Below, in pieces: positions 5,542 through 55,332 of a stretch of 64,000 nucleotides of DNA. Source of the stretch: Gallionella sp. (GTDB lineage Bacteria; Pseudomonadota; Gammaproteobacteria; Burkholderiales; Gallionellaceae); NCBI GenBank assembly GCA_003153155.1, contig PLWV01000017.1, forward strand, positions 37,932 to 101,931, read 5' to 3'. Position 1 is the first letter of the stretch. Each line of letters begins with the position of its first letter. Both the position numbers and the translations under genes were made by a program. The notes under the pieces are model-generated. The model saw only the letters and a list, made by a program, of their open reading frames with translations, was not told the origin of the DNA and did no database searches.

Positions 5542-5581
5542 TGTCTCAATCTACTAAAACTGGATGCTGCAAATAAACCGT

Positions 5582-5600: not shown

Positions 5601-5608
5601 GATTTCCA

Positions 5609-5725
5609 CCCCTTCCCCCTTGCAGAGGGGGAGAGCGTAGCGAGGGGGCAACTGGGATGGGGGTAGAACTGTGGGTAAGCCAAGCTTCTACCCCCTCCCT
5701 AGCCCTCCCCCTGCAAGGGGGAGGG
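5609..5725. repeat. C/G-rich palindromic repeat pair
   Basis: Two related hairpins (CCTTCCCCCTTGCAGAGGGG at about 5611 and CCCTCCCCCTGCAAGGGGG at 5703) bracket GGATGGGGGTAGAA...TTCTACCCCCTCCC, so the whole block can fold. The same type of unit recurs at 19843. Confidence 0.7.
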
Positions 5726-5734
5726 AACTTTAAA

Positions 5735-6799: not shown

Positions 6800-6811
6800 G
6801 CCGGCTTTCGT

Positions 6812-34649: not shown

Positions 34650-37364
34650 TTAATAGCATTTCCTTATAAATGGGCAATCGTAACTTGATCTAAGCGTTAC
34701 CGCATCCGCCGAACGATCTGTATAAAGGAATAAATCGATATCAAGGTCTGGAACGGTTTGTTTTAACGCCTTCAACCTTGCCAGAACCTCATTGGTGGGC
34801 GGGCATGAATGAGGAACGAAGGGTCGCCTATTTGCATTTTCTACATCGGATCTCTTGCAAGGTATATCGTGATTGATTAATAGGTCTGCAAATCTCTGTG
34901 CCGATACACCATTCACTTGGCGTGACAGTCCGGCCTTTGATTCTCTCCAAGCCGAACACAACAGCTGCCGCAATCGTTGAATGTCAGGGTTAATTTTCTT
35001 GAGGTATTTGCCATGCTCCTTCGTCAGGAAGGAGTGGGCCTCGACCGATGATGCAAAGGCCTCATAGTCGCCCGGTGTTTTCAGGCACACATGCTTGTCC
35101 TGCGTGTAGTCATCCCACGCTTCCCGAATTTCGACAAATTGCTCTAAAGAATGCCACGGGCGCGTACTGAATATGAGGTGCTGGTGCTTCTGCGAAAAGC
35201 CCACGCCCAATGGCTGGCGCTTCCAGTCGTATTCCATGTTCAGCTTCTTGGAAATAACCTTTTCCACCAGATCGGCATCATGTTCCACCATATCGCGAAT
35301 GCCTGTCATGGCCTCCACCCTAATCAATGAATCAGGGGTACGGCTGAAAAACATACGGATGATTTCGTTGTTCTGGTCTTCCGTTGACTCGCATTCTGGC
35401 GGCGTGAATATGCCTCCCTTGGCCAATACGGTTATTTTGTCCTCATCGTCTGGACTGGTAGCCACTCCCGGCATCAATGTCGCTTGGCCTCGGGTTCGCC
35501 AGCCTAATGGCTTGCGCAAGAAGTGCTTGGTTTCAAGAACCGATGGCAGGCCCGTCAGTAGCTCCCGCGATTGCAGGAACAGCTTGGATAATTCCCCTTC
35601 CTGTGCCCGTTTGATTTCGTCCTTGCCGGCATTGGAAATGAACCCGTCAGTCGTGCAACTGAAAACGCAGGTGTCACGGTCAAGGTTGTTGATGATCTCG
35701 CCCATAATGGCGCGAGTAAATGACGTGATGTACGATGCGAAAAACGGGTTGGTGATGGCACTCGGTGGAAGTATTTTCGTAGCACGGTCACGCATGTCAT
35801 ACACCCGCTTGGGCCTCAGCCCTTGTGCTGTCTTGCCATAGGTGGAATTGCTGATTTCCTTCCAGAACAGGCTCTCAAGCTTTTTCGTTCCTGCATTCTT
35901 ACGCCGTTCCAGGCAATCCTTTATAAACAAGCCAAATATTTTAATGTCGGGGTCGGACGGGACGATGACTCCCTTGTTTATCTTGATTGTGGCACCGAGC
36001 TTGCGCGCAACGAATAGCTCCGGGGCTGAACAATAGCTCTTGCCGGTGAGCGGAAAGATCAAACCGTGATTGGTACGGACAGGCAGTGTCGGATACCTTG
36101 TCTCAGCTGGAAACTCAAAATCTACGTTGGCAAACCCCAGTGTCGTCGGCGTAAACAATTCGATGCCAGGATCATCATGAACCTCATGCCATTTCGGCAT
36201 GCCGATGAGTGACATCGCGGTTGGATAGGCGCTGGATAAGTCGTAGTCCGTCCAGTCATCCTCGAAGCATGGCCCAAACCAGAATTGCTCGTTGCGGCCG
36301 CCGTGGTAGCTCTCGGTTATGAAGTCGATATACCACGCCACCTCCTCCATATCGACGACCTTTTTATTCTTGACGAAGTATCCCTTTTTCTTGTCGAAGT
36401 ACCGTTCAGTGACCTCCTCCTTGCCGAGAATAGTGAGTGCATCTTCTGCCAAATTTTCCTTCCAGCTTTTCTGAAGCAGATCGACACCGATGGAAGTCAG
36501 GGTAACGGGCACTTTCTTCTTGCCGGTGATCTGCTCGAATTGGTCGATGATCTTTTCGATGTAGCGAACACAGATCGTTGCATCGTTTAGCGCATACCGT
36601 TTGAACAAGTCCCAATGCTCGACCCGAACCTTATCCATGTTGCGGATCATGTCCTTGTGCTTGGCCTCGTCGGGGTCTAATTGCATCTTCTCCTGGCCGA
36701 CCAGCTTGCCTATTTCCTTGAGGCTTTTTGAAGCCTGCGGAGTGAGCAGCATCGTGTCCCTGAATAATAGGTTCAGCGATGTGCTGGCACTGCCATCCGG
36801 ATAATCAACCCTCAGGTGAGCGCCGCTGTCGATCGAGATGAAAGTATTGCGAACACTGGACAGCAAATGAGTCAGGTCTTGAAAGTCGGCGAATGCCGGT
36901 ACATCAGCCCGAGTGAAATGGCCTACGAGGTAAATCTTGGTTGGTATATTTTTAATTTGATGGTCACGAGCACCAAGGCCAAGAGCAAACACGACGAATT
37001 CACCAAGGGTCATGCGCTCATCACCATCAGGACAGCAAATGCCTTGCCACTCATGACCATCGCTGGTCTTGGCATGAAACTGGTAGGATAAAACCCGGTA
37101 CTTCGCCTCACCAGCTACAATTTGCTCGCGACTGACATGGTATTCAGGCGTTTTAAACTCAGTGTCAAAGCCGATAATCAGGTAGGGTTCAGAAGCAACG
37201 GCAACGGCTTCGGCTGCTTTCTTGCGTGTGCGTTTGGTTTTGGCTTTTGCAGGGATGAAATCTGTACTGGCTACTTCAGTTTCTTGCGGCGTTTTATTGC
37301 CTATCAGTTCGGTTGGCTCTGCAAAGTACTTAACCTTGTTGGAGCTTTTTAGTTCATCCGCCAT
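34650..37364 (-). CDS. Family B DNA polymerase of mobile-element type (piPolB-like candidate)
   Basis: A 904-residue polymerase. After a lysine-rich N-terminus of ~60 residues comes a 3'-5' exonuclease domain: Exo I IGFDTEF (D67, E69), Exo II VGHFTRADVPAF (~147-158), Exo III YALNDATICVRY (~257). The palm follows: motif A YDLSSAYPTAM (D375), motif B KEISNSTYGKTA (~502-513), motif C TTDGF (D573), here TTD rather than the usual DTD. A C-terminal ~300 residues has no known motif. Size, complete proofreading domain and position beside a tyrosine recombinase in a tRNA-integrated element resemble the primer-independent PolBs of pipolins; a protein-primed polymerase is the alternative. All catalytic residues visible are intact. 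Confidence 0.88.
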   Translation of the reverse strand: MADELKSSNKVKYFAEPTELIGNKTPQETEVASTDFIPAKAKTKRTRKKAAEAVAVASEPYLIIGFDTEFKTPEYHVSREQIVAGEAKYRVLSYQFHAKTSDGHEWQGICCPDGDERMTLGEFVVFALGLGARDHQIKNIPTKIYLVGHFTRADVPAFADFQDLTHLLSSVRNTFISIDSGAHLRVDYPDGSASTSLNLLFRDTMLLTPQASKSLKEIGKLVGQEKMQLDPDEAKHKDMIRNMDKVRVEHWDLFKRYALNDATICVRYIEKIIDQFEQITGKKKVPVTLTSIGVDLLQKSWKENLAEDALTILGKEEVTERYFDKKKGYFVKNKKVVDMEEVAWYIDFITESYHGGRNEQFWFGPCFEDDWTDYDLSSAYPTAMSLIGMPKWHEVHDDPGIELFTPTTLGFANVDFEFPAETRYPTLPVRTNHGLIFPLTGKSYCSAPELFVARKLGATIKINKGVIVPSDPDIKIFGLFIKDCLERRKNAGTKKLESLFWKEISNSTYGKTAQGLRPKRVYDMRDRATKILPPSAITNPFFASYITSFTRAIMGEIINNLDRDTCVFSCTTDGFISNAGKDEIKRAQEGELSKLFLQSRELLTGLPSVLETKHFLRKPLGWRTRGQATLMPGVATSPDDEDKITVLAKGGIFTPPECESTEDQNNEIIRMFFSRTPDSLIRVEAMTGIRDMVEHDADLVEKVISKKLNMEYDWKRQPLGVGFSQKHQHLIFSTRPWHSLEQFVEIREAWDDYTQDKHVCLKTPGDYEAFASSVEAHSFLTKEHGKYLKKINPDIQRLRQLLCSAWRESKAGLSRQVNGVSAQRFADLLINHDIPCKRSDVENANRRPFVPHSCPPTNEVLARLKALKQTVPDLDIDLFLYTDRSADAVTLRSSYDCPFIRKCY

Positions 37365-38223: not shown

Positions 38224-39369
38224 CTACTCCACCACCGCTGTCGCATGTAGCCGATTCAGCACATCAACTGCCAAGCGCGACGCATCGCTGGGTGCCAAGT
38301 CGGCGTAATAGCTGGCCGTAATGTCCACGGTTGCATGACCCAATATCTTGGACACGTAGTGAATTGGCACGTTGTTCTGTACCAGCCGCGATGCACAGGT
38401 CTTTCTAAGGTTATGGAATGAAATGCCGTCAATGCCAGCCCGATCGCATGCACTACGGAACGCTTTCGGTGAATATTTGCGCGGCCCGCCTGACTTGCAT
38501 TCGAAGATGTAAACCTGGCTTGTCGTCTTGCCATCGAACCTGCGCTGCAATACCTCACGGGCACGGTGGGTCAGCTGCAACATCGACTGGTTGCCAACCT
38601 TGGGGCGATACAGCTGAACCTCGTTGCGATCCAGCCGCACATCTTTCCATTGCAACTTGGACAACTCGCTGTGGCGGCATCCGAGGTCGAGCAGCAGTAC
38701 CGCGAAGTCGTAGGCGTCATGTTTCATCCGGCGCATTTCATCAGTCTGGTTTCCTACGCTGGCAAGACCACGAGCAATCCTATCCGGATGCAGTTCTTCC
38801 AGCAGCCGTGCTTCTTCCTCAATGGACAGGAACCGGATGCGCTTGCGGTCTGGCTTGATTGCATTGTCTCGCTTGATTTCGGCCAGGTTGAGCTCTGGTA
38901 CTTCGTACCCCAATTTCCGGCAAAGCTTGATGATGCTGTTCAGCGTCAGCAGTTCATACAGGATCGTGCCGTTGGCGTTCTGCTCTTTCCGGCGTTCAAG
39001 GACAAGGCGCTGTATGTCCTTGGTTTTGAGCTCGTGCAAATAAGTGCTGCCATCAAAACCGAAGCAAGCCACACGGGTCTGAGTGCCGGGTTGATTCTTT
39101 GACCCCAACAGCTTGTTTGCTCGCGCCTTGATGTTGCCGTATTCGCTGTTACCTCGCTTACTGTCGAGGAATTGTTGTATGGCCGCTTTTAACGTGATCG
39201 GCTCGGCCTTGTCGCTAAGCGATGCCTCTATCGCCTTCCTGCGTTCACCATCCTCCACCTTCTTGGCAACCGTCTTGTTGCCGGTGCCGGTTGAACCGAA
39301 ATGTTTCTTTCCTTTTAATTGGAAAGAGTAATACCAATTGGGACTTGATGCGTGTCTGACTATGCTCAT
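38224..39369 (-). CDS. Tyrosine recombinase (phage-type integrase)
   Basis: Integrase of 381 residues, complete. An N-terminal arm-binding-like domain (YYSFQLKGKKHFGSTGT) is followed by a SAM-like core-binding domain and a catalytic domain with Arg I in LGCRHSELSKLQW, a lysine in the beta-hairpin region, HNLRKTCASRL (HxxR), LGHATVDITASYY (second His and the nucleophile Tyr). It would integrate and excise the element, presumably at the tRNA-Thr end found at 24219. The ATG at 39369 is kept. It is encoded on the polymerase strand, 860 bases upstream of it. Confidence 0.93.
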   Translation of the reverse strand: MSIVRHASSPNWYYSFQLKGKKHFGSTGTGNKTVAKKVEDGERRKAIEASLSDKAEPITLKAAIQQFLDSKRGNSEYGNIKARANKLLGSKNQPGTQTRVACFGFDGSTYLHELKTKDIQRLVLERRKEQNANGTILYELLTLNSIIKLCRKLGYEVPELNLAEIKRDNAIKPDRKRIRFLSIEEEARLLEELHPDRIARGLASVGNQTDEMRRMKHDAYDFAVLLLDLGCRHSELSKLQWKDVRLDRNEVQLYRPKVGNQSMLQLTHRAREVLQRRFDGKTTSQVYIFECKSGGPRKYSPKAFRSACDRAGIDGISFHNLRKTCASRLVQNNVPIHYVSKILGHATVDITASYYADLAPSDASRLAVDVLNRLHATAVVE

Positions 39370-40033: not shown

Positions 40034-41563
40034 TCACTTAGGTGGTAGGGGCAAGCGTTTATTTGATAACTGGCTCTCAATTAGCCTAAGGTCAGAAATC
40101 ACTTCGGCAGCTGATTGCTCTAGTGCTTTTCGCCCCCTTTGCTCGTCTGCATCAAGCCACGCGCGAACATTGTCTAAAAGTTGTTGCTTAGCTTTTCTGC
40201 GAGCTTGCTTATCGGCATGAACAAAAACTTCTTTTGTTTGTTCCGCAAATTCGGCTGGATAGTATTGCTCGAATTGCGCTTTGCTAAAGCAGCCAAATCT
40301 ATCTGACTTCCACGACGGATAGCGACCCTGAAGTCGTGTGATTATTTCAGAACCAGCACTATCGCCATCAACTCGCACCCAAGCCGCATCTCGATACGCT
40401 TCTTCCAAATGTGTGAAAAGTACTAAACGGTGAAAGTCATCGAAAGTTGGTCCAACTTGACTCACTCCACCTACAGCAAGGGTTCGAACACGTGCTAGTT
40501 TTGGAGCAAACCAAGGAATAAGGTAGTCACGAATAATGCGCTCGGCTGATGACTCTTCAAGAATCAACCAGCCATCCCAAAGATCAAAGTCAGAAAAAGA
40601 GTAACCGAGTTCCCGTAGCACCTCAAGCCGAGCATCAACAGTTGGTTCAACAGCTCGAATTGTCGCAATAGGCGGCAACTTTCCAAATACAGAGGTAATG
40701 TTGTAAAGCCTACTATTTACTGCTGCTGCGAGGTGACGCACTACAATGTTTGAATGTGTCGAGACTACAAATTGGTTTGACTTGGAACTCTCTACAATTA
40801 AATCAAGCAATGCCTTGAGGGCTTGTGGATGAAGATCGTTTTCAGGTTCTTCAATCAGAATGAGCTTCCCTTCCGAGAGCGCCAAATCGGCCAAAAGTGC
40901 CACGATATTTGGTACGCCTTCACCCATTTGGTCGATAGGGATGGTCTGACGATCCGGCAAATAAACACCAGGACGCAGCCCATTGAGAGATGGTATGGCT
41001 GTCACCACGAACCCGAGAATTTCCTTGCAAGTATTGCTATAGCGTTCGTACTCAGGAAACCCTGGGTTTGCGAGCCTGGAAAGCCTTGCAGCAAGATTCG
41101 ACATATCTGCGTTGACTCGTAGCGCCATTTCATTTCTAACGTCTTCTTGATAGTTAGAAGTTTTGCGCTTTGATAGATAAGGTACTACAAAATGGAGCGG
41201 TTCAACATTTTTCAGAGCTTTAGTTCTATGGGGGGTCGAGTCGTCAGGCCTCTGAATAGTGATGGCAATTTCACCGCTACTTCTATCTTGTGATTTCATA
41301 TCAACCCCGAGAACTCCCGATCCCGTATAGCCAAATTCTCCTTTCATATCACCCAAACCAATCATGATCTGAGCGGCACCTGTGCTAACACGTACGTCAG
41401 GATAAGGGTTTCCGTAACTTTCCTGAATAAGTAGCAATGCCCTAAGGATAGAAGATTTACCCGCATTGTTTGGGCCAATAAGGACGTTGATTTGGTCAAG
41501 CTCTATTAGCTCCATAATCTCGAAGGAGCGGAAGTTTTTGAGTTCAAGAGAAGTAACACGCAT
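40034..41563 (-). CDS. OLD-like ATPase with TOPRIM-type nuclease domain
   Basis: A 509-residue protein of the RecF/OLD type. The N-terminal ABC-like ATPase half has Walker A IGPNNAGKSS (~30), a signature-like MGEGVPNIVALLADL and Walker B LILIEEPENDLHPQA, with an H-loop histidine in VVSTHSNIV. The C-terminal half has a TOPRIM-like pattern: LILEESSAERIIRDYL then WVRVDGDSAGSEI (DxD). OLD-family nucleases defend against phage, alone or with partners (Gabija GajA pairs with a UvrD-like helicase, which is absent here). It is divergent from the methyltransferase gene with an 80-base shared upstream region. Confidence 0.85.
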   Translation of the reverse strand: MRVTSLELKNFRSFEIMELIELDQINVLIGPNNAGKSSILRALLLIQESYGNPYPDVRVSTGAAQIMIGLGDMKGEFGYTGSGVLGVDMKSQDRSSGEIAITIQRPDDSTPHRTKALKNVEPLHFVVPYLSKRKTSNYQEDVRNEMALRVNADMSNLAARLSRLANPGFPEYERYSNTCKEILGFVVTAIPSLNGLRPGVYLPDRQTIPIDQMGEGVPNIVALLADLALSEGKLILIEEPENDLHPQALKALLDLIVESSKSNQFVVSTHSNIVVRHLAAAVNSRLYNITSVFGKLPPIATIRAVEPTVDARLEVLRELGYSFSDFDLWDGWLILEESSAERIIRDYLIPWFAPKLARVRTLAVGGVSQVGPTFDDFHRLVLFTHLEEAYRDAAWVRVDGDSAGSEIITRLQGRYPSWKSDRFGCFSKAQFEQYYPAEFAEQTKEVFVHADKQARRKAKQQLLDNVRAWLDADEQRGRKALEQSAAEVISDLRLIESQLSNKRLPLPPK

Positions 41564-41643
41564 AAATTAATTGTACTACTAATTGTCAGACCACCTTGCC
41601 TGCCGAAATGACCTGTTGTTGAACCTCTAAGTTTGAACGTAGA

Positions 41644-43422
41644 ATGGCGCTCATGAATAGTCTAATTGAACTTGACATCCCCCAAGCCCAACGGCCTCGG
41701 TATAGCCAGGTTGATCTACAGAAACATTCTGGGGCCACTTATACCCCAGAAGTTTTCGCAGTATTTGTTGCCAATCAAATGATACAACTTGCCAAGCTGC
41801 CCAAGAGAGGGAAAATCCGCATTCTTGATCCAGCTGTAGGTGATGGCGCTTTACTGGATGCGCTGATTAAGCGCTTGCCTGCGGCTGATCGTAAGCGTGT
41901 TGAAGTAATTGGCTACGATACTGATCTAAACGCTATCAAGGTCGCATCGCAACGCCTTGGTGAGGACTTTCCTGGTCTAGATATTCGCCTTGAACAGAAG
42001 GATTTTCTCGAACACGTCCTAAGCTTAGGAGAGCGCGATGATTTGTTCTCTTCGAAGGATTGCCAAGAGCCATTCCATTTAGTGATCGCCAATCCGCCTT
42101 ATGTTCGCACGCAGATTATGGGTACTCAACAAGCCCAGCAGTTGGCGCTACGCTTTGGCCTAACTGGCCGCGTAGATTTGTATTACCCTTTTCTTTTGGC
42201 GATTTCCCAAGTTCTGGTCGCTGGTGGTATTTCAGGTGTGATTACCTCGAACAGGTTCATGACTACAAAATCTGGTCAGGCTGTGCGACGCGCATTGCTG
42301 TCCCGCTTTCAGATTGTGCATGCGTGGGATTTGGGTGATACGAAACTTTTTGATGCTGCTGTTCTGCCTTCGGTTCTGCTGGCTCGGGGAATAACAGACT
42401 GCCAACATCCAAGCGTCGATGGCATAGCGTTTTCCACAATTTACGAAACCCAAGATTCCTTCCAAGAGATTGCTCATGATCCTCTGGCAGCCTTGGTCGT
42501 TGAGGACAATACAGTTGTAGAAATATCCGATGGCCGACGATTCCGAATTCGACATGGTATATTGGACAACGGAGGTAGCCCAGATGGTCTTTGGCGCGTC
42601 GGGACTCAATCCACTGATCAATGGCTGGCAACGGTAGAAGCCAATACTTGGGATACCTTCAGGCGCATAGGCAAAATTCGTGTGGGCGTTAAATCTACCG
42701 CTGATAAAGTTTTTATTCGTAATGATTGGGCTGATTTGCCTGAAGGCGAGCCTGAATTGTTACGTCCACTGATAACGCGCCATCACGCACGTCGTTTCAA
42801 GGCTCTATTTCCTGCGAAGGCCAAACATGTCAAAGCTATTCTTTACCCGCATGAGATGACAGAAAGCGGACGAGGCGCTGTGGATTTGAGTCATTACCCA
42901 AAAGCTAAACGTTACCTTGAGCGGCATCGAGATGTGTTGGAGTCTCGAACCTATGTTATTGAAGCTGGACGTCAATGGTACGAGTTGTGGGTTCCACAGG
43001 ATCCCTCAGCGTGGTCATCTCCCAAATTGGTGTTTCCCGATATTTCTGAAAAACCGATTTTCTGGATCGATACCGAAGGTGGTGTAGTTAACGGTGAGTG
43101 CTATTGGATGCGATGCGAAAAAGATGGTGATGAGGATTTGTTATGGCTGGCTCTTGCTGTTGCCAATTCGACGTTTATTGAAGCGTTCTACGACCACCGA
43201 TTTAATAACAAGCTATACGCTGGACGCCGTCGTTTTATCACTCAATATGTGGAGAAATTCCCATTGCCTGACCCAGCTCGAGAGGATACTCAAGTCCTTA
43301 TTGCGATGGTAAAATCTATCTACGCAAAAATTCCATCCAGAGAAGCTGATGATTTGGCTGCAACTCTGGACGAGCGAGTGTGGCGAGTGTTCGGCTTAGA
43401 GTTCGAAAAAATCTCGGGGTAA
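41644..43422 (+). CDS. N6-adenine DNA methyltransferase of a type II restriction-modification system
   Basis: A 592-residue Eco57I/PaqCI-like methyltransferase. SAM motif I is ILDPAVGDGALLDALI, motif IV (catalytic) is IANPPYVRTQI, placing it in the gamma class of adenine methylases; VITSNRFMTTKSG is motif VI-like. The C-terminal ~250 residues form the target recognition region. No nuclease domain is fused, so it is a stand-alone modification enzyme. Its 3' end overlaps that of the convergent nuclease gene by 27 bases. It protects host DNA from that nuclease; the recognition sequence cannot be read from the protein. Confidence 0.92.
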   Translation: MALMNSLIELDIPQAQRPRYSQVDLQKHSGATYTPEVFAVFVANQMIQLAKLPKRGKIRILDPAVGDGALLDALIKRLPAADRKRVEVIGYDTDLNAIKVASQRLGEDFPGLDIRLEQKDFLEHVLSLGERDDLFSSKDCQEPFHLVIANPPYVRTQIMGTQQAQQLALRFGLTGRVDLYYPFLLAISQVLVAGGISGVITSNRFMTTKSGQAVRRALLSRFQIVHAWDLGDTKLFDAAVLPSVLLARGITDCQHPSVDGIAFSTIYETQDSFQEIAHDPLAALVVEDNTVVEISDGRRFRIRHGILDNGGSPDGLWRVGTQSTDQWLATVEANTWDTFRRIGKIRVGVKSTADKVFIRNDWADLPEGEPELLRPLITRHHARRFKALFPAKAKHVKAILYPHEMTESGRGAVDLSHYPKAKRYLERHRDVLESRTYVIEAGRQWYELWVPQDPSAWSSPKLVFPDISEKPIFWIDTEGGVVNGECYWMRCEKDGDEDLLWLALAVANSTFIEAFYDHRFNNKLYAGRRRFITQYVEKFPLPDPAREDTQVLIAMVKSIYAKIPSREADDLAATLDERVWRVFGLEFEKISG

Positions 43423-44442
43423 CGGAATCTGGATTTTGCCGTTGATGACTTTACCCTCGAAGCGTCTAAATCTACTAAAGAAATCTGCTCCGGTAGTGAC
43501 AAAAAGATGAGTCAAGGTCACAGTCACTCCGTCCGTTGCCGCATAAAACATAGCGTACCGAGTGTCACAATGGCGCGGGTGGATGTTTCCTATCTGTTGA
43601 ATATCCAATTGCTCTTCGCTGCTTGGCTGAACGAGTCCTAAATCAATAGTGGGCGATGTTTGTAACTTCACTTCCAACAGCTGATGTCGTACATCGGGGA
43701 ATTGTCCTTTGTCTTCGTAACGGTTGTATCCCAGCCGTTCACAAACTAAGCGATGGAGTGATGCTCCACGATTGCGTTCTTGATCCATGCCAGGGTCAGC
43801 AAACGTCTGCCCGACGAGATGAGAAAGTCTCTCAAATATTTCCCTGATCGGAAGTAACGTACCGCTTTCAGGTTCTTGAATTGGGCTGGTTTGGGGATTG
43901 AATATTGCGTTGGCTTTAACGTACGGCATCATGGCATCAGTGTCTTGCGGCGATATCAACTCGTGCGTGGTGGTGCCGGTTTCAAGTCGTGCTTGATACT
44001 TGGTGGTGATTGTTCCAGTTGTATCTAACAACGCAAGTTGTTGACCATTTACGACTTTCACTCTGCCAATTACATCGTCTTCTGAAACTTCAATAATTGC
44101 GTAACGGCGCGTTGGTGAAAGCTCTTCATTCCAGATTTGTAGGTTTAGTGACTTTTGCGCGTAGGTGTCAAGTTGTTGGCCTAAAAAGCGAGGCTGTGTC
44201 TTTTTAAATGACCTTGGAATTGGATAGCCAAGTGCCTCGCACACTGCTGTTTTGACGACTTTTGATCGTGTACGCAACGCAAGGCCCGAAAGGGACAGAC
44301 CTCGCAATCCCTCATTTAGCAACGTCTCCAAGTGCTGCATAGGAATCCAATAGTCAGGGTCGCCGACTTCAATATTGGCGTAGATGTCTTTGCCGGATGA
44401 TGCTATGGCTTGCTTGTAATCGGAGGTTTTTTTCTCGGTCAT
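43396..44442 (-). CDS. Type II restriction endonuclease (PD-(D/E)XK type)
   Basis: A 348-residue protein. QFPDVRHQLLEVKLQTSP contains the PD...E-x-K nuclease motif (about residues 240-257). The N-terminal half (NLQIWNEELSPTRRYAIIEV...) is probably the DNA-recognition part. It lies convergent to, and overlapping with, the methyltransferase gene, the usual close pairing of a type II system. The name of its isoschizomer family is not recognised. It begins with ATG at 44442. Confidence 0.82.
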   Translation of the reverse strand: MTEKKTSDYKQAIASSGKDIYANIEVGDPDYWIPMQHLETLLNEGLRGLSLSGLALRTRSKVVKTAVCEALGYPIPRSFKKTQPRFLGQQLDTYAQKSLNLQIWNEELSPTRRYAIIEVSEDDVIGRVKVVNGQQLALLDTTGTITTKYQARLETGTTTHELISPQDTDAMMPYVKANAIFNPQTSPIQEPESGTLLPIREIFERLSHLVGQTFADPGMDQERNRGASLHRLVCERLGYNRYEDKGQFPDVRHQLLEVKLQTSPTIDLGLVQPSSEEQLDIQQIGNIHPRHCDTRYAMFYAATDGVTVTLTHLFVTTGADFFSRFRRFEGKVINGKIQIPLPRDFFEL

Positions 44443-44992: not shown

Positions 44993-45510
44993 CGTCATTC
45001 GCTTGCTGATACCCTCGCCAACCATGCATCTGGCTGGCTTGTACTTTTTTCGCCTAAATTCAAGGGGCTGATTTCAACGTCCCGGATTTTCACCAGCAAA
45101 ACCTTCTCCATTGTTGGGACTATCCATCAATCTTGAGCACTGTACAACGGGATCGTTGCCTGTTGACCTCTTTTCGAAATTGTTGGATTGTGGCCATACT
45201 GGAAAATCTGTTAGCCTTGCCAGCCTTGGTGTAGGTCGTCAGATGGGGTATATATACGGCACTGTTACACCATCGGTTATGCCGCACCCTTCTGAGTGCC
45301 ATTGACCGCAATTTGCGTGAAGCGGACGGTCAGCATTCGAGTTGTTGTCCGACATGGATTCTAACCAGAGAGCAGGTCCTCCAGAATGCTTAGATATATC
45401 TTGCCATGATGCCAATAGTGAATTGTGTCTATAATCGGCACCTTGTAACCGTAGCCCTCCGTGTTACCTGAAAAGGGGAATTGGCGCATTTAAGCAAATG
45501 GAACTCACTA
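44993..45510. other. Gene-free interval with dispersed repeat R1
   Basis: Contains the R1 repeat (45122-45272) and otherwise no supported ORF before the ParA-like gene. Confidence 0.5.
45122..45272 (-). repeat. Dispersed gene-fragment repeat R1
   Basis: On the minus strand it reads GCCGTATATATACCCC... then CCAAGGCTGGCAAGGCTAAC, encoding TTYTKAGKANRFSSMATIQQ. It matches R3 at 59847 (same words) and, in part, R2 at 49655. It is probably the 5' part of one lost gene left in several places. Confidence 0.75.
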
Positions 45511-46530
45511 ATGATTAAATACTCTTTCTGGAACAACAAGGGCGGAACAGGCAAAACTAGTCTTGCCTTTCAATCGATATCAATATTTGCGGAACTCCAT
45601 CCAGATAAAAAGATTCTTGTTGTTGATCTTTGTCCCCAAGCTAATTTATCTGAACTCCTATTGGGCGGATTGACTGGTTCAGGTAGCCATAATCTCAATG
45701 CGTTACATAGCAATACACCGAGACGGAGTATTGGAGGCTATTTTCAAGATCGCCTGCCTTCTCCGTTTCTCATGCCGACCCTAACTGTTGCTAACTACAT
45801 ATCGAAACCCCATTCGTATAACGAAAATATTCCTGCCAATATAGATTTGGTGGCTGGTGACGCACTTGTTGAATTGCAGTCCAATGCAATCTCGACACTT
45901 GCAAATACCCAAATTCCTGGAACAAATACTTGGCTAAAAATTATAGACTGGCTAAACGATTTCGTCGCTCAGGTCCAGAATGAGTATGATTACCTCTTTG
46001 TTGATGCAAACCCAAGTTTTTCCATTTATACGCAGATAGCGATCGCAGCAACCGATTCGATGATTCTTCCAGTTATGGCCGATGATTCGTCTCGTCGAGC
46101 CGTTCAAAATGCAATTGCGCTAGTTCAGGGATTAAATTTGCCGTCTCCAATATACAAACAGCACAACTTTGCTTCACAGTTGAATGCCGCAGGACGGCTG
46201 CCACCACGATTCCATTTGTTTCCAAAAAACAGACTAACGCAATACATGGGGCCCGCATCTGCTTATCATGCAGTCCTAACTGAAATCGACACAATGATTC
46301 AAGCTGTTCAGCAAACGAACCCGAACGTATTTACCTTTGCAAACCTTGCTGATGGAGTGACAGAAATTAGAGATTTTCAGACCACAGGAGTTGTGGCTTT
46401 TGCTTGTGGCCTTCCATTTACGCGTATGCATGCAGGAAGGTATCGTATGCCGGGAAGAGTGGTGCAGGTCAAAGCTGAATATCTGCAAAACTGTATTGAT
46501 GCCATGAATGCGATGGTTGCCAAGCTCTAA
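45511..46530 (+). CDS. ParA/MinD-like ATPase
   Basis: A 339-residue P-loop ATPase with the deviant Walker A motif WNNKGGTGKTSLAF, switch I VVDLCPQANLS and Walker B-like DYLFVDANPSFSIY. The C-terminal ~100 residues (GRYRMPGRVVQVKAEYLQN) are specific to this subfamily. There is no ParB gene nearby; the next gene encodes a DUF6119/TIGR04141-type protein, so this is probably not a plasmid partition system but an ATPase partner in an accessory module. The track start at 45481 is replaced by the ATG at 45511, which begins the conserved region. Confidence 0.85.
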   Translation: MIKYSFWNNKGGTGKTSLAFQSISIFAELHPDKKILVVDLCPQANLSELLLGGLTGSGSHNLNALHSNTPRRSIGGYFQDRLPSPFLMPTLTVANYISKPHSYNENIPANIDLVAGDALVELQSNAISTLANTQIPGTNTWLKIIDWLNDFVAQVQNEYDYLFVDANPSFSIYTQIAIAATDSMILPVMADDSSRRAVQNAIALVQGLNLPSPIYKQHNFASQLNAAGRLPPRFHLFPKNRLTQYMGPASAYHAVLTEIDTMIQAVQQTNPNVFTFANLADGVTEIRDFQTTGVVAFACGLPFTRMHAGRYRMPGRVVQVKAEYLQNCIDAMNAMVAKL

Positions 46531-46603
46531 GCTGAACACCTCGTCTGTTTGATGTCAGATTTTCTGTCTTGGTGCGCAAATTGTTTGATTTCTTGATAGT
46601 GAC

Positions 46604-48208
46604 GTGGCCGATAAATCCTCAAAAGCCGATCTCAATATTTACCTCGCCAAAGCGGAGGTTAAGAACGCCTCCGATATTGTTAAAAACCTTAGTGAGTTGA
46701 AATCTTTCGATCTTGAAATTAGCGGGATAAGTCCTTGTACCTTATTCATTAAGAATAACTATTCAAACACTCCTCGCTGGGCCCGGTTTCTTGCTCCAAT
46801 TGTTGTCGCTACGGAATTCGGGCGAAATTCTTCAACCGGCGCGCTGCTTTACGCAAAAGTTGGGGATGCGATATTTATTTTGACCTTTGGGCAAGGCCAT
46901 CAATTAGTCGATTCAGCAAAAATCGAAATGAATTTTGGCTTAAAAGTCGCCTTAAATCTCCTTGATGTAGCAAGCCTCCGCAGCATAGATAAGTCGTCTT
47001 TCGAGCAACACCCTACACAAACTCGTGAGCAAACCGGCGTCGCTACTGAGCTTCAGTACTTCGGCTTGAATATTGAACGTGACCTTCTGCGCGCTATTAC
47101 AGGAAAACCCAATGATGAAAAATATGGTACGCGCATATCAGGAAAGGATGCTTTAAAGCTAAGTGTCGAAGTCAAGCTAAAGAACCTTGCCGATTTACTA
47201 AAGCACATTTTAGCTACCTATAACGACAATGCTTATAAACATGGGGCATTCGCATGGGTTGATCATATCGGCGAAGTAAGGGACAAAGCTCTTCATGAAA
47301 TACTAGACGTCGAACTTTTGAATCGAATCAACTCTGAAAATTTTGAGCGTGTCTGGTTGTCTGTTCCTGAAATAATCGATTGGGATCGGGTAGTAGGCTT
47401 CAAGTACACCGGCGCCGCATCATCTCCCCGATATTACGATATTCGCATATCGGAGTTTCTTGAAACCTTTAAAGGCAAAACCCCAGATGCTCAAAGCCTG
47501 AGACAGCGAAAAATACTTTGTGTCGATTCAGACGATCTTGTCGTCTATGAGTGGCCTGCGTATCGCTTCATCTATGCTGAAGTTAACTATCAATTCGACG
47601 TGTACGTATTGAACAATGGGAAATGGTACAAAGTAAACCACAAATTCGCAGAACAAGTGAACAGCTTTTTCACGAACGCTCCTAAATATGAAAAGTCGCT
47701 CCCGATTTATGATGATGAAACTGAAGGCGACTATAATGAACGGGCAGCAAAAAGCGATCCAGACTCATTTGTACTGTTAGATAAGAAGAATATCCTTGTG
47801 ACAGGAGCAGCCGCGCCAGTAGAGCCATGTGATTTACTGAGAAACGGAAATGAATTTATCCATGTTAAGCGTTACGGTGGTTCCAGCGTTCTAAGCCATC
47901 TATTCAACCAAGGCCTTGTGTCCGGCGAACTGTTTCAGATGGAGCCTGAATTTCGCAAACTCCTAAATTCCAAATTGCCCGCCAAGTTTAAGCTAATAAA
48001 CCCAAACAATAGACCTAATGTAAATGAATATCATGTGGTTTTCGCTATTATCAGTGAATCCGATAAAAAGGATTTGACGGTACCTTTCTTTTCAAAGATC
48101 AGTCTCAGACATGTAATGACTCGACTACAAGCTATTGGGTTCGTTGTGACGGTAGCAAAAATTCCCGTGGATGAAATGAAAAAGAAAACAAAGAAATATG
48201 CTCCTTAA
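46604..48208 (+). CDS. TIGR04141/DUF6119-type sporadically distributed protein
   Basis: A 534-residue soluble protein starting with GTG. It resembles the family described as TIGR04141 (DUF6119): the N-terminal LNIYLAKAEVKNASDIVKNL and later KFAEQVNSFFTNAPKYEKSL and FIHVKRYGGSSVLSHLFNQG are the typical segments. No enzymatic signature is obvious. Family members occur patchily in bacteria, often within defence-rich islands; their activity is not established to my knowledge. It lies 73 bases after the ParA-like gene on the same strand. Confidence 0.8.
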   Translation: MADKSSKADLNIYLAKAEVKNASDIVKNLSELKSFDLEISGISPCTLFIKNNYSNTPRWARFLAPIVVATEFGRNSSTGALLYAKVGDAIFILTFGQGHQLVDSAKIEMNFGLKVALNLLDVASLRSIDKSSFEQHPTQTREQTGVATELQYFGLNIERDLLRAITGKPNDEKYGTRISGKDALKLSVEVKLKNLADLLKHILATYNDNAYKHGAFAWVDHIGEVRDKALHEILDVELLNRINSENFERVWLSVPEIIDWDRVVGFKYTGAASSPRYYDIRISEFLETFKGKTPDAQSLRQRKILCVDSDDLVVYEWPAYRFIYAEVNYQFDVYVLNNGKWYKVNHKFAEQVNSFFTNAPKYEKSLPIYDDETEGDYNERAAKSDPDSFVLLDKKNILVTGAAAPVEPCDLLRNGNEFIHVKRYGGSSVLSHLFNQGLVSGELFQMEPEFRKLLNSKLPAKFKLINPNNRPNVNEYHVVFAIISESDKKDLTVPFFSKISLRHVMTRLQAIGFVVTVAKIPVDEMKKKTKKYAP

Positions 48209-50045: not shown

Positions 50046-50136
50046 CGTCTTGATGACCTCCTTGAGAGGTATTTATCAGGACGACCAACACAGCCATCAG
50101 CATAAATATCTGTACACCAAACAGGAGGTAGCGGAT

Positions 50137-50343
50137 ATGAAACTATCAGAAGTCGCAAATGACTTGGAACAACGCAGAATCGAATTACTGAAAAGCAATA
50201 CCGAGATCGCCAAGCAGCAAGCTGCCTATTCGAAGTCGGCACAAGCATGGTTCGAGTTGCAAAAGGCTGAAGCTAACGAACAGAAAGCACGGCAGAGATT
50301 TATTCAAGCCGCCCTAGCTTTTTCAAGCAGCTCTCATCCTTAG
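50137..50343 (+). CDS. Small coiled-coil protein, paralogue A
   Basis: A 68-residue, probably all-helical protein starting MKLSEVANDLEQRRIELLKS. An AGGAGGT site seven bases upstream decides the ATG at 50137 over the track start. It shares its first ~20 residues and helical character with the next gene (50376). The function is unknown. Confidence 0.65.
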   Translation: MKLSEVANDLEQRRIELLKSNTEIAKQQAAYSKSAQAWFELQKAEANEQKARQRFIQAALAFSSSSHP

Positions 50344-50375
50344 ATACCGTCAACGATCAACAGGAGACCACGAAA

Positions 50376-50558
50376 ATGAAACTAGCAGAAATCGCCAATG
50401 ATTTAGAACAACGCAGAATTGAAATACTGAAGAACAATGCCCAACGTGCGAAGCAGCAGGTCATAGATGCTCAGGCTAGAGCTAAGATGAGGAAGGCTCA
50501 GGAGGAATTGCGGAAATCACGAGAGGCGTCAGCTTCAAGTTTGTCGTTGGTTGGATAG
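50376..50558 (+). CDS. Small coiled-coil protein, paralogue B
   Basis: A 60-residue helical protein (MKLAEIANDLEQRRIEILKN ... SASSLSLVG) with AGGAGA upstream. It is a tandem duplicate of the preceding gene with a different second half. A further copy of its C-terminal half is found at 60487-60600, fused to an integrase fragment. Confidence 0.65.
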   Translation: MKLAEIANDLEQRRIEILKNNAQRAKQQVIDAQARAKMRKAQEELRKSREASASSLSLVG

Positions 50559-50656: not shown

Positions 50657-51169
50657 TTATGACGGGCGTTTGAATTTGCTTCTATCCGTACCTTTGCCCT
50701 CAACCGCTTTCCCGAGTGAAACCAAACGGTTGCAAGCTACCAGAACAGCCCATGGCACCTCACCAAGGTGATCAGCTATTCTCGCGTAAGATATGAATTT
50801 TGGCCCCAACATTTTGTGTACTCGATCCTCGAGGGCCATGTCATTCCCTTCCAGTACATCGTCCTCCCAATCGCACCAATAGATACGCGATCGCCAAACG
50901 ATGAAATGGCTGCGGCAACCGTTGTCACGCCACACAGAGGGGAACAATGACGCCCCACGTCGATCGTTGTAGAAGCGCCAAGCAGAACCCGCACGTTCGT
51001 CAAGATTGATAGTCAAGGTATCGCCGCATCCATCCGGACATGCAATGACCAGAGATCGCTGAACTCCACGGTTCACCAAGACCGCCGTACCTGGCCCTCT
51101 AAGAAGCTCATCCGCTTCGTGTCGGTGGGCTACTTCACCAGTGAGTGTCAGTCGATTAGCCCGTCTCAT
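50657..51169 (-). CDS. DUF6527-like protein of the ubiquitin-like operon
   Basis: A 170-residue protein, fifth gene of the operon. ACPDGCGDTLTINLDE and, later, CRSHFIVW and YWCDWE supply cysteines for a probable zinc site; this matches my recollection of DUF6527, a family found beside E1/E2/JAB genes. The C-terminal ~50 residues add a helical domain (KFISYARIADHLGEVPWAVL). The track start at 51211 is replaced by the ATG at 51169, whose ATGA overlaps the kinase-like gene's stop exactly. The role is unknown; it could be a substrate adaptor, a scaffold or a target. Confidence 0.72.
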   Translation of the reverse strand: MRRANRLTLTGEVAHRHEADELLRGPGTAVLVNRGVQRSLVIACPDGCGDTLTINLDERAGSAWRFYNDRRGASLFPSVWRDNGCRSHFIVWRSRIYWCDWEDDVLEGNDMALEDRVHKMLGPKFISYARIADHLGEVPWAVLVACNRLVSLGKAVEGKGTDRSKFKRPS

Positions 51170-52668
51170 GCAGACGCGCTCCCAGAAGCAGAGGACTTGG
51201 TTGTCAGCCATTCGACGAGTTGGGATCCAAGAAAGTACGCATAGCCGCGACGATAAGCGTCTTCCTCATTCTCAGTTGTGTACTGCGAACGTCTGAGCAG
51301 ATGCAGTGCAATTGCGGTTGGATATTCCGTGTCGCACTCACATATAGCACCGGCAATCATACGGGTTTGCCGAATACAGCCACGCAGCCAATCCAAGCCT
51401 ACGTCGGTACTCGCAAGTCTAGGAGGCCTATTCACCTCGGTCGGGGAGAATAATTCTTTTGCGACCTGCGTCCAAACCTTTCGGTCAGGAATCTGTTTAT
51501 TGGAGTTTGGCACCTGAAAAGTTAGCCAGACCTCCAAGCTTGCCACGTCCGCACAAAGAGGCCCATTACTCGCATTTGCCAAGTCGATAATAATTGCGTC
51601 GTTGTTGCGTACGCGTACATTTTCAGCATGCATGTCGCCGTGCATTGGAGCGTAGCGCAATTGCTGTTCGGGCAAGTTGAGCAACTGCTCCCACAATTCC
51701 TGAGGTGATCGCACCGACCCATGCTGTTTGGCCTGTTCAACAGTCTGCACCGGCACCCTTTTCCATTTAAAAACATCTTTCAGACTACTAGCCATACTGC
51801 ATTTCATTGGTGGACGGCTATAGGCTTGGCTTCGCCAACCCATCAATGTATCTTCGAATAGAGCATGGATGTAGCGCGGCCCTTTGCCGTTAAGAACGGC
51901 CTGCCACAATGATTCTGATTGCTCGACGAAACTACCTACAAGGATTCCACGTTCCACCCCTTGTATACAGCGAGAAGGATCTAGGTTGGGACGGAGGTAC
52001 CATGGTATATGATGGGTGGCGAAAAGCTGATAGTTGGTTACTTCGGTGAAAATCTTGTGCGCTTCATCAAGTTTGACGAAGAACGGTAATGGCCGCGGCC
52101 CAACTTCAGACGCCGTTAGCGTAGCCTGAGCGAAGAAGGCCGTGGCAGAAAGTCCGCCACTTAGCGGCTCGAGCGAAACAGCCATACAGTCGCTGAAAGC
52201 ACGACATACAATAAACTCCTGATCTGCGTCGAGATGCACATCCGGCGGAAGCTGAATCTGCAAATTAATATTGGCATGTCGGCCAGCATCGTGGCGTGCA
52301 ATATTTTCCGCACATTCAAAAGATGGTACGCTGCCCGTGCGTGACCTCACCAGCATCGCAAGGTGTCCCTTACGTACGGCATCAGGCACCTCTCTCAATA
52401 AATGCGCCTGAATCGCGTCATCCGCAGCAAGCAGATAAACCATGAGGCCATGTTCGAGAGCGGTCAGCAAACTTCCAATTTGAGCTGATACCACTGGCAC
52501 ATATGGGGGGCTCGCGTTGTATACAACGGCCCGTGCTACGTTGAAGTCGATGACTGTGCCTTCAGTTAGAGTACGAATGACCAGATTGCGACGCTCGAAC
52601 TCGAGTCGTTCTTCAATGGTTGGTGGAGAGCCAATCCAGTAGACGACACTTCGACTAATCGCTGACAT
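51166..52668 (-). CDS. Kinase-like (APH/choline-kinase fold) protein of the ubiquitin-like operon
   Basis: About 500 residues. The N-terminal ~110 residues (RSVVYWIGSPPTIEERLEFE...) look like a receiver-type alpha/beta domain. Then comes a two-lobe kinase fold: a lysine in LPFFVKLDEAHK (~199), catalytic loop MHGDMHAENVRV (343-350) and the metal-binding aspartate in IIIDLANAS (~362), with the HGDxHxxN form of aminoglycoside/choline kinases. The residues needed for phosphotransfer are present. Starts: GTG at 52713 or ATG at 52668; neither has a strong ribosome site, and both overlap the E1 gene. Coupling to the E1 suggests a role in the same pathway. Substrate unknown. Confidence 0.75.
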   Translation of the reverse strand: MSAISRSVVYWIGSPPTIEERLEFERRNLVIRTLTEGTVIDFNVARAVVYNASPPYVPVVSAQIGSLLTALEHGLMVYLLAADDAIQAHLLREVPDAVRKGHLAMLVRSRTGSVPSFECAENIARHDAGRHANINLQIQLPPDVHLDADQEFIVCRAFSDCMAVSLEPLSGGLSATAFFAQATLTASEVGPRPLPFFVKLDEAHKIFTEVTNYQLFATHHIPWYLRPNLDPSRCIQGVERGILVGSFVEQSESLWQAVLNGKGPRYIHALFEDTLMGWRSQAYSRPPMKCSMASSLKDVFKWKRVPVQTVEQAKQHGSVRSPQELWEQLLNLPEQQLRYAPMHGDMHAENVRVRNNDAIIIDLANASNGPLCADVASLEVWLTFQVPNSNKQIPDRKVWTQVAKELFSPTEVNRPPRLASTDVGLDWLRGCIRQTRMIAGAICECDTEYPTAIALHLLRRSQYTTENEEDAYRRGYAYFLGSQLVEWLTTKSSASGSASA

Positions 52669-54004
52669 GGAGGCGTGTCGGCAAAGACCAAGTATTCCCT
52701 CTCCCAAGTGCACCAGCGGGAGAACAGACTATACACTCAGGGTGGGGCGTCATCACTGTGGGTCGCATTGCTCCCCGAATCGCGTCATATAAAACAAATC
52801 GCGCTTGCGAAGGAATTGCCGTCACAGCTGATAAAAAAGTCGTAACTGCAATAGAAGAAACGGCACCATTGAGTGAGATTACTGCCGGCTGGGGCACCCC
52901 TTCACCCTTGAAATAAGGATCCGCTGCGCGCTGCTCCGGCCTCATCATTTCAATGCGCACTTGGTTAGGGTCGATCCAACCGGAACACAGAAGGCATGGT
53001 AACCCGCTCGATATCATCTGAGTACGGCCTACTATATGCTTGACGACCCCATTAGTAGCGTGAATCGCTACACCCATGTCTATGGTAGGTATAAGGTATT
53101 GATATGCAACTTGATTGACGACAGCTCGGCTAGCATGCGAGTCAGTACACAAAAAAATGAAGTCCACGTCCAATAAATGTTTGGCAATATCATCTTCAAC
53201 AATATCTGCATTGCACTCGACACAAGTTGCCTCTGGATTAATGGTCTTAATCCACCTTCCCATTTGTTCGACTTTGAATTTTCCGATATCAACGCGAGTG
53301 GCTCCCAGCAGTCTGTTCAAATTTGTTTCGTCTACCACATCGGGATCAATAAGAAGGAAGTCTGCTAAGCCGAGGTATGCAAGCTCTGTGGCGATAAATG
53401 AACCAGTGCCGCCTGCTCCCACGATTGCAACTCGCAAGTTGCCAAATATTTTCTGGACATCCGATCCAAAGGCGAGTACTTGTCGGGCAAAACGTGGATG
53501 CTGCTCGGCGTTAGCAACGTGGTCTGAGTGCAGCCAACAAATATCCCGTCCAACAACCTGCATTCCAATGAGTTTTTTTGATCCGAGTTGTCTACACTGT
53601 CCGCTGCTCTGTGTGAACAAGGCCGCAATGTGAAAACTATTTGGGACGCGACGTTCGAAATATTCCTTCAAACATTCTTCCCCAGCATCATCAATTGACG
53701 AAAATGATCGCATTGGCCGATCGCCCGGGTGGGTATGCGCAAGCACGATGCCAAGCCCTGCTTTGCGCGCACGGTTAGCAAGATCAATGCAATAACCGGG
53801 AGACAAAACCGCGTTGACCGGGCTTCGTGATTGATAAGCTGATTCAGGTACAGGTAGCATCTCTCTTACCACATATCGGGGTTTCCCATTGCGCATACCT
53901 GCAGGCGCGATGAGGCCGCTGGCACAAGTTTCCAGCAGATCAGACGCTGCACGCGATTGCAGTTCCTCTACAGCTGCCTGCTCAAAAGTAACGATCTGAC
54001 TCAT
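52655..54004 (-). CDS. JAB-peptidase/ThiF-type E1 fusion
   Basis: A 449-residue fusion. Residues ~20-160 are a JAB/JAMM metallopeptidase domain with the motif AHTHPGDRPMRSFSSIDD (HxHP then S..D). Residues ~185-449 are a ThiF/E1 adenylation domain: AIVGAGGTGSFIATELAYLG, LIDPDVVDETNLNRLLG (arginine finger NLNRL) and the zinc cysteine pairs PCLLC and ECIVC. It would activate the C-terminal glycine of the Ubl at 54384 and could also cleave conjugates with its JAB half. The ORF track start adds 64 residues; the ATG at 54004 overlaps the E2-like stop (ATGA). Confidence 0.9.
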   Translation of the reverse strand: MSQIVTFEQAAVEELQSRAASDLLETCASGLIAPAGMRNGKPRYVVREMLPVPESAYQSRSPVNAVLSPGYCIDLANRARKAGLGIVLAHTHPGDRPMRSFSSIDDAGEECLKEYFERRVPNSFHIAALFTQSSGQCRQLGSKKLIGMQVVGRDICWLHSDHVANAEQHPRFARQVLAFGSDVQKIFGNLRVAIVGAGGTGSFIATELAYLGLADFLLIDPDVVDETNLNRLLGATRVDIGKFKVEQMGRWIKTINPEATCVECNADIVEDDIAKHLLDVDFIFLCTDSHASRAVVNQVAYQYLIPTIDMGVAIHATNGVVKHIVGRTQMISSGLPCLLCSGWIDPNQVRIEMMRPEQRAADPYFKGEGVPQPAVISLNGAVSSIAVTTFLSAVTAIPSQARFVLYDAIRGAMRPTVMTPHPECIVCSPAGALGRGNTWSLPTRLHVSD

Positions 54005-54381
54005 TGGGGTTTGCTCAATCGCTGCTTGATAAGTGTGAACCATGTAACTAAATCGTCGCGATTCGGGTTCCAAGGATCGACATGCCAAGAGAACCACAGC
54101 ATGGCGTCGGGCACTCCCGGTATTGGATTGTTGATCTGCGTGTTCTGCGGGATGTTGCCGTTGGCTAGTCTCAAGTCCAGGTCGGCCCAGAAGCAATCCG
54201 GCTTTGCAAAAGGATAGCCTTGTGGCGCGACAAGGGAAATATGAGTACTCTTCTTGTTCCAGCCTGTAGGCAAGGTAACTGCGGAAATTCGAATCACCCA
54301 GCCGGTTCCGGCGACTTCCTGAACAGTGACGTCACCAATGCGAGCGCGAAGTCGCTCTAAATGCAAATCGATTGGGCCCAT
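54001..54381 (-). CDS. Prokaryotic E2-like protein (Prok-E2_E type)
   Basis: A 126-residue single-domain protein matching the pattern of the prokaryotic E2 family E: VTLPTGWNKKSTHISLVAPQ then GYPFAKPDCFW, and the C-terminal WFSWHVDPWNPNRDDLVTW. There is a single cysteine (C63, in PDCFW). Whether it is the thioester cysteine or the family uses a different residue cannot be decided here; the invariant-looking histidine is in WHVDPWNP. It starts two bases after the Ubl gene ends and overlaps the E1 gene, as expected for a conjugation cassette. Confidence 0.82.
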   Translation of the reverse strand: MGPIDLHLERLRARIGDVTVQEVAGTGWVIRISAVTLPTGWNKKSTHISLVAPQGYPFAKPDCFWADLDLRLANGNIPQNTQINNPIPGVPDAMLWFSWHVDPWNPNRDDLVTWFTLIKQRLSKPQ

Positions 54382-54383
54382 TA

Positions 54384-54641
54384 TTACCCAAAGGTAGCTG
54401 GTGGAACAATGGTAAACCGTGCAGGGCCGTGTCCGGTATCCAGATGTACCACTTCGTCGTCCCCAATTAGACGGTCTGGTTCATTTCCGTGACCTTCTAG
54501 GGACAAGCCTGTACCTGGTTCAAGGTTTGGGATTCTAGCCTTGATCTGCGCACCCGTGAGTGTCGGCTGATCAGTATCGTAGCGGATGTTATTGACAAAG
54601 TAGTGGTAGGTCTGCGGTTTGTGTGGTTGCTGATCGCTCAT
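54384..54641 (-). CDS. Ubiquitin-like protein (multiubiquitin-domain type)
   Basis: An 85-residue protein, first gene of the operon. A single beta-grasp domain of the multiubiquitin kind: YHYFVNNIRYDTDQPTLTGA, IKARIPNLEPGTGLSLEGHG and HLDTGHGPARFTIVPPATFG. The protein ends at a single free C-terminal glycine, so no protease processing is required before adenylation by the E1. There is a GGGAGA ribosome site upstream of the ATG at 54641. The lack of a second Ubl repeat or any fused domain is the simplest version of the family. Confidence 0.85.
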   Translation of the reverse strand: MSDQQPHKPQTYHYFVNNIRYDTDQPTLTGAQIKARIPNLEPGTGLSLEGHGNEPDRLIGDDEVVHLDTGHGPARFTIVPPATFG

Positions 54642-54792: not shown

Positions 54793-55070
54793 CTACGTCG
54801 GCTTCTGAACTAATACCAGCCGATCACTGTTCCGATTCAGTCTATTGATTACATCGCGAGCCTTTGACGTGACCTGCCGCTGTTCTAAATGCGCATATCG
54901 AAGAGTGGTCTTAATATCTGTATGTCCAAGAATTTCCTTAACCTCATACACGCTCATACCGTTCTGCACCAACCGTGAAGCATGCGTGTGCCTCAATGTA
55001 TGAATCCGGCAATCACACAAGCCAGCCCGCTGAATGGCCTTCCGAATCGACATCGCAGAGTATCCACGCG
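54766..55070. repeat. Direct repeat D, copy 1 (integrase 3' end and flank)
   Basis: From GTCATGCAGCCAGACTCAC to GACATCGCAGAGTA, about 300 bases, recurring at 60187-60486 in the same orientation with scattered substitutions. Confidence 0.85.
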
Positions 55071-55332
55071 CATCACCATTCCGATTGCAAAACACATAGC
55101 GGCTTGCCTTGTTCGCATCTCTGCGTGACAACACCTCAAACACTCTATCCGTCATAAACAAAACCGTCTCGTTTTGCACCTTCTGCCGCCACAAGTGAAC
55201 TGTCCGGCTGGCAAGGTCGATGCGCGACCACTCGATGTTCGCTATCTCTGAGTATCGCGCACCTGTATCGAGCAACAAGATCACCAAATGCAGTCTCGCC
55301 CTGCCAGTTACGGCCCAACCATACCTTCCCAC
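54793..55332 (-). pseudogene. Tyrosine recombinase, C-terminal part only
   Basis: About 170 codons of the catalytic domain: Arg I region LLDTGARYSEIANIEW, HTLRHTHASRL (HxxR), LGHTDIKTTLRYAH (second His and nucleophile Tyr). The N-terminal DNA-binding domains are absent; upstream the sequence is fused at about 55320 to the 3' end of a lipoprotein gene. Catalytic residues are all there but the protein is too short to integrate DNA unaided. Confidence 0.85.

Follow-up and report, generated by a model that had tools for sequence, protein, structure and literature searches.

A conserved kinase gene in a Bub-type ubiquitin-like conjugation operon of Gallionella

The DNA stretch analysed here, hereafter the window, comprises 64,000 nucleotides from Gallionella sp. 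(assembly GCA_003153155.1, contig PLWV01000017.1, positions 37,932 to 101,931 of the forward strand). Between positions 50657 and 54641 it carries an operon of about 4 kb with five genes, transcribed in the order ubiquitin-like protein (Ubl), E2-fold protein, JAB-E1 fusion, kinase-like protein, and DUF6527 protein (Table 1). A preliminary description, made from the sequence alone, had proposed this five-gene set, and we found five intact open reading frames (ORFs), all on the minus strand and with Pfam matches. The close coupling of the genes that it reported was likewise recovered: Ubl and E2 are separated by a 2-bp gap, E2 and E1 overlap by 4 bases (ATGA), E1 and kinase by 14 bases, and kinase and DUF6527 by 4 bases when the last gene starts at 51169. 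The longest DUF6527 ORF overlaps the kinase gene by 46 bases; because DUF6527 homologues begin at residue 15 of this ORF, the ATG at 51169 is likely the true start, giving a protein of 170 aa and the second ATGA overlap. Kinase and JAB-E1 are each single-copy in the genome, where two other E1-like matches cover the adenylation domain only. A Thiobacillaceae contig from a metagenome-assembled genome (L002) encodes the identical five-gene set at 69-78% amino-acid identity. Synonymous sites are saturated between the two and non-synonymous differences are about one quarter as frequent, with the kinase changing no faster than E1; all five genes therefore look to be under purifying selection. The five-gene order recurs in independent genomes, far beyond chance.

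Table 1. Coordinates of the operon genes and of the adjoining recombinase fragment in the window.
Feature	Position	Strand	Basis
Ubl, Multi_ubiq family, 85 aa, single beta-grasp domain	54384..54641	-	Pfam, solved relatives 9cd2/9d59
E2/RWD-fold protein, Prok-E2_E, BubB-like, 126 aa	54001..54381	-	Pfam, alignment, BubB match
JAB-E1 fusion, BubCD-like, 449 aa	52655..54004	-	Pfam, motifs, Citrobacter BubCD match
Kinase-like protein, APH/TCAD9 superfamily, 500 aa	51166..52668	-	Pfam, catalytic residues
DUF6527 protein, ORF 184 aa	50657..51211	-	Pfam, metal-binding signature
Tyrosine recombinase fragment, upstream, mobile-element context, outside the system	54793..55332	-	

The kinase occurs in the operon at 13 distinct loci in Pseudomonadota and Deinococcus: the window, L002, G130, G461, G621, G890, G957, and six plasmid loci (Rhizobium C104, Rhizobium 007, Mesorhizobium, Deinococcus, and Bradyrhizobium in two types, for the second of which six additional matches have the same identity). 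The JAB-E1 frame is broken in the Rhizobium C104 plasmid, and an additional remnant locus (L009) lies beyond the 13. The preliminary description had tied the kinase into the conjugation cassette, and the conservation of both kinase and DUF6527 beside Ubl and E1 genes, whose absence it had named as a refutation, bears this out. The JAB-E1s of kinase-bearing loci group on a single long-stemmed branch (100/100 support) in a maximum-likelihood tree built from 26 JAB-E1 sequences. Another 21 Bub-type loci (10 on plasmids, plus 3 and 8 in genomes) consist of Ubl, E2-like, JAB-E1, and DUF6527 genes without a kinase, and these operons are placed outside the kinase-bearing branch. Their Ubl and E2 are often fused, whereas no such fusion was seen among the 13 kinase loci. 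As a control for the bias that loci had been found via the kinase, an E1 profile and a kinase profile were each run on their own against 398 genomes from a single order. Three E1s scored above 550 bits and all others at or below 271 bits; the kinase was found in exactly the three genomes with a high-scoring E1 (3/3 vs. 0/14 canonical), an outcome expected once in 680 if the two were independent. Across all plasmid and genome matches in the collections searched, the kinase family was found solely beside Bub-type genes, and no gene substitutes for it within the branch. Pairwise distances of E1 and kinase are correlated (r = 0.91, permutation p = 0.0002), much of which shared descent alone would give. 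A second architecture, Ubl-E2-JAB/E1-DUF6527-Ubl2-kinase, was found at L032 (G890; 5996-7733) and L042 (G957; 5570-7317). Here a second Ubl gene directly precedes and overlaps the kinase gene, each locus has P-P-T-x-F-G as the terminus of its two Ubls, and the two kinases group together with 99% support in the Shimodaira-Hasegawa-like approximate likelihood ratio test. No kinase relative was found in phages and no E1 relative in viral contigs, and E. coli genomes yielded no E1 match at the DNA level.

The kinase-like protein of the window matches APH (PF01636) at 37.6 bits (cut-off 23.2) and TCAD9 (PF19974) at 38.2 bits, under the cut-off of 40. Both profiles are matched by all 12 family members, and 8 of the 10 relatives listed exceed the TCAD9 cut-off. 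The catalytic residues K199, E209, H343-G-D345-x-H347-x-x-N350, and I361-D362 are invariant in 12/12 members from two phyla; in the window the HGDMHAEN loop, noticed in the preliminary description, lies at 51619-51642, the K199 codon at 52072-52074, and the D362 codon at 51583-51585. Because of these profile matches and invariant residues, the prediction of an active phosphotransferase is well supported at the sequence level. An alignment by hhalign to the genome's own APH proteins reached 90% across the catalytic segment. With APH and TCAD9 kinases the protein shares the HGDxHxxN loop, the ID(F/L) motif, and family-wide profile matches; it differs in an N-terminal domain of about 140 residues, own to this kinase family, and in being found only with Bub-type genes. 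The earlier suggestion of a receiver-like N-terminus did not survive profile comparison. Against 18 receiver domains from the same genome hhalign returned a probability of 0.1%, and no phospho-acceptor Asp is conserved. The sole receiver-compatible sign is an alternating strand/helix pattern, modelled with low confidence at a predicted local distance difference test (pLDDT) score of 44-62.

Profiles of Multi_ubiq, Prok-E2_E, ThiF, APH, and DUF6527, named in advance for hidden Markov model searches, all matched the operon proteins. The Ubl of the window itself scored 24.1 bits with Multi_ubiq (PF14452; E = 4e-5), 0.4 bits under the cut-off of 24.5, and the profile is matched by 10/10 members of the Ubl family (best E = 2e-12). 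As first noticed, the Ubl ends in a free glycine (...PPATFG, Gly codon 54387-54389). Within the branch the terminus reads P-[PK]-[AT]-x-F-G in 14/14 Ubls, with 0-7 residues following the Gly and with the preceding F as a branch-specific invariant residue; canonical Bub Ubls instead end in T-T-E-G or have the Gly within a Ubl-E2 fusion. The E2-like protein matches Prok-E2_E (PF14462) at 46 bits. In the sequence alignment Trp96 occupies the position of the canonical catalytic Cys, as in other Bub E2s. An invariant Cys63 (codon 54193-54195) lies off the usual catalytic position and is Met in canonical Bub; W41, C63, W65, F97, and S98 are the branch-specific invariant residues. The JAB-E1 fusion has an N-terminal JAB domain and a C-terminal adenylation domain of ThiF/MoeB type with CxxC...CxxC. 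Its ThiF match is strong (129 bits) and its Prok-JAB match weak (13.9 bits, below cut-off). The JAB E-HxH-S-D motif is nevertheless intact, with E25, H90, H92, S102, and D105 invariant in 11 relatives, and Ubl trimming or deconjugation by this domain is therefore plausible. E1 residues invariant and specific to the branch are S292, Q298, Q302, and R402. Such residues in the conjugation parts are what would be expected if the machinery had co-adapted with the kinase.

The DUF6527 protein (58 bits) carries the metal-binding signature C58-x3-C62-x36-C99-x2-H102, and a C-terminal helical extension is usual in the branch. A Foldseek search of the Protein Data Bank (PDB) with a two-sequence model (pLDDT 59) gave no match with E below 0.06, and a search of the papers available found no mention of DUF6527. 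G130 and G461 each hold two DUF6527 copies. Tandem pairs are present at L036 (8722-9822) and L037 (4827-5941), where one copy has a CPCGCG knuckle and the other CPDGCG, suggesting a possible division of labour.

By homology the system belongs to the Bub group, because the family profiles match Citrobacter BubCD (E = 6e-62), Citrobacter BubB (E = 6.6e-9), and the solved multi-ubiquitin proteins 9cd2/9d59. It shares with Citrobacter BubA/BubB/BubCD the Multi_ubiq Ubl, the RWD-like E2 without canonical Cys, the JAB domain N-terminal to E1, the DUF6527-type metal-binding protein, and the gene order, and relatives carry HTH-M78 or WYL regulators. Operon type 6e of Iyer et al. 2006 (PMC1779556), with 1-3 Ub-like domains, an inactive RWD-like E2, JAB N-terminal to an E1-like domain, and a metal-binding protein, would appear to be Bub under another name. 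The signature of its metal-binding protein was given as C-x3-C-x(35-38) with the last two ligands printed H-x2-C (PMC1779556); DUF6527 fits this protein, but with C-x3-C-x36-C-x2-H the last two ligands are reversed. In a 2026 paper 544 Bub operons were counted, of which many have regulators that respond to DNA damage; the paper states that Bub protection against phage has so far not been demonstrated (PMC13373217). Of the "incompletely described system" in the preliminary description, the core of Ubl, E2, JAB-E1, and DUF6527 is thus already known as the Bub/6e family, and the kinase is the unusual part. Apart from the kinase, the loci described here differ from Bub in the invariant E2 Cys63 in place of Met, in the usually extended DUF6527, and in the unfused Ubl and E2. 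Two features typical of Bub, though not defining, are also absent, since the E1 lies outside the kinase-less group and the Ubl lacks TTEG. We regard the system as a subtype rather than a typical member because its E1 forms a separate 100/100 branch and its Ubl has a PxxxFG terminus. That the kinase is an obligate member of this Bub subtype is in our judgement very probable. A literature search, made without the main Bub papers, found no kinase described as an obligate Bub member, and the novelty of the linkage is provisional.

Other ubiquitin-like systems fit less well. Bil (BilABCD), known for its anti-phage function, has the same set of Ubl, E1, E2, and JAB. The operon is not a Bil member: its JAB and E1 are fused, its E2-like protein lacks the catalytic Cys position (motif CEHH in Bil; PMC11354881), and a kinase is present. 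Type II CBASS (cyclic oligonucleotide-based anti-phage signalling system; Cap2/Cap3) and 6A-MBL share ubiquitin-like E1 chemistry and a JAB peptidase in defence islands. Here the operon has its own Ubl, its E2 is a separate gene and not fused to E1, and its genes include no CD-NTase (cGAS/DncV-like nucleotidyltransferase) or metallo-beta-lactamase partner, which sets it apart from both. The E1-E2 models of PADLOC matched just the E1 part.

In addition to a tyrosine-recombinase fragment, the surroundings of the operon contain an OLD/AriA-like ATPase, an Eco57I-type methylase, and a ParA/DUF6119 pair. This is the setting of a defence or mobile island, but it does not prove function. The recombinase fragment shows 41% identity with the C-terminal half of a full-length integrase (38224-39369) 15 kb away. 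No attachment-site repeats or tRNA were found adjoining the operon, and scans for promoters and terminators gave sites no more frequent than chance. The ATPase and the adenine methylase lie at 40034-44442 with a convergent gene for a 348-aa protein without Pfam match, a possible restriction partner. At 45508-48208 the ParA-like ATPase stands beside the "sporadically distributed" DUF6119/TIGR04141 protein, as a candidate uncharacterised conflict pair. Two small ORFs at 50050-50558 arose by tandem duplication (100 nt, 78% identical; MKL(S/A)E(V/I)ANDLEQRRIE). A DNA polymerase gene of the organellar/viral type B family (DNA_pol_B_2, 34650-37364) points to an element of phage or plasmid origin in the region. 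No HTH-M78 or WYL regulator gene adjoins the operon in the window. Elsewhere in the branch, divergent genes for helix-turn-helix (HTH) and M78-peptidase proteins were found at L007, L031, and L042, and an upstream WYL protein gene at L036; they are similar to CapH+CapP and CapW, which are known as regulators of CBASS and Bub (PMC13373217).

Homology to BubA, BubB, and BubCD, together with the motifs, allows a mechanism to be proposed. The adenylation half of JAB-E1 would activate the C-terminal Gly of the Ubl, and the E2-fold protein would position or carry the Ubl so that it can be attached to a target. Trimming of C-terminal tails, where present, and removal of the tag would fall to the JAB half. 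DUF6527 would bind metal and probably serves as an adaptor. The kinase is a core component and no swappable add-on. We hypothesize that its substrate most probably lies within the pathway, be it the E2-like protein, E1, the Ubl, or the tagged target, and that conjugation and phosphorylation act as one switch. Such a core role is favoured by three observations: the kinase occurs in one branch only, no other gene takes its place there, and it co-varies with E1. Taken in full, the proposal of a Bub subtype with an obligate kinase acting on the pathway itself is tentative, and we hold it with somewhat less than even confidence. A more specific version, in which an obligatory kinase step on the cascade (Ubl, E2-like protein, E1, or tagged target) makes the system a bacterial counterpart of PINK1 and other ubiquitin-pathway kinases and the E2 has a rebuilt branch-specific site at Cys63/Ser98, we consider doubtful.

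Several points weigh against the proposal. One kinase-less locus, L019 on a Roseomonas mucosa plasmid (4603-6230), falls inside the kinase branch. Its E1 is truncated beside IS21 with DUF6527 directly behind; it is the only kinase-less member of the branch and apparently decayed. In an alignment comparison no Ser, Thr, or Tyr of the Ubl was both invariant in the branch and absent from canonical Bub, and a fixed PINK1-like phosphosite on the Ubl is thus not indicated. The single-sequence AlphaFold model of the kinase (pLDDT 35) was uninformative. Enzymes of the APH superfamily frequently phosphorylate small molecules. TCAD9 is named, moreover, after bacterial conflict systems whose effectors include active APH-like kinases (PMC7159879), and it would be that effector kinase domain.

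The main rival to a core pathway role is an effector role. The kinase may be the output arm that phosphorylates a host or phage target upon infection or DNA damage and halts growth, with the Ubl machinery activating, restraining, or targeting it. There is a model for such an arrangement in type II CBASS, where conjugation primes the nucleotidyltransferase. The TCAD9 matches of the whole family, the genes resembling DNA-damage regulators at L007, L031, L042, and L036, and the nearby methylase and OLD/AriA-like ATPase all agree with an effector. However, exchange of effectors among related systems is usual; within this branch the kinase was the one fifth partner observed, and canonical Bub loci carry nothing comparable to an effector gene at that position. 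We regard an effector role as possible but rather unlikely. It is distinctly unlikely that the kinase is an APH-like phosphotransferase for a small molecule, whether nucleotide, sugar, or antibiotic-like compound, and that it makes or destroys a signal employed alongside the Ubl system. Remote PDB profile matches do include methylthioribose kinase, maltokinase, and amicoumacin kinase (E approximately 1e-3 to 1e-1). These weak matches span little beyond the catalytic loop and include the protein kinases YihE and Rio2, so that they do not discriminate, and the strict linkage to genes of protein conjugation speaks for a protein as the substrate. A role as scaffold or as adaptor for target selection, with dispensable catalysis, would be in keeping with the adjoining E1 gene, the large N-terminal domain, and the finding that most protein kinases in conflict systems are inactive (PMC7159879); with every catalytic residue invariant, we rate this as very improbable. 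Finally, defence-like genes abound in this mobile region, but the notion that kinase and DUF6527 are unrelated island genes beside the operon by chance is refuted by the conserved linkage, overlapping genes, and single branch of the neighbourhood survey, and retains practically no probability.

Bacterial ubiquitin-like pathways have been shown only recently to conjugate proteins. The operons described here hint at a coupling between tagging and phosphorylation in the immunity or stress response of bacteria. The kinase branch offers a natural, small five-gene system in which phosphorylation control of ubiquitin-like tagging could be tested in bacteria, and the branch-specific E2 cysteine provides a concrete hypothesis for the working of an E2 that lacks the usual cysteine.

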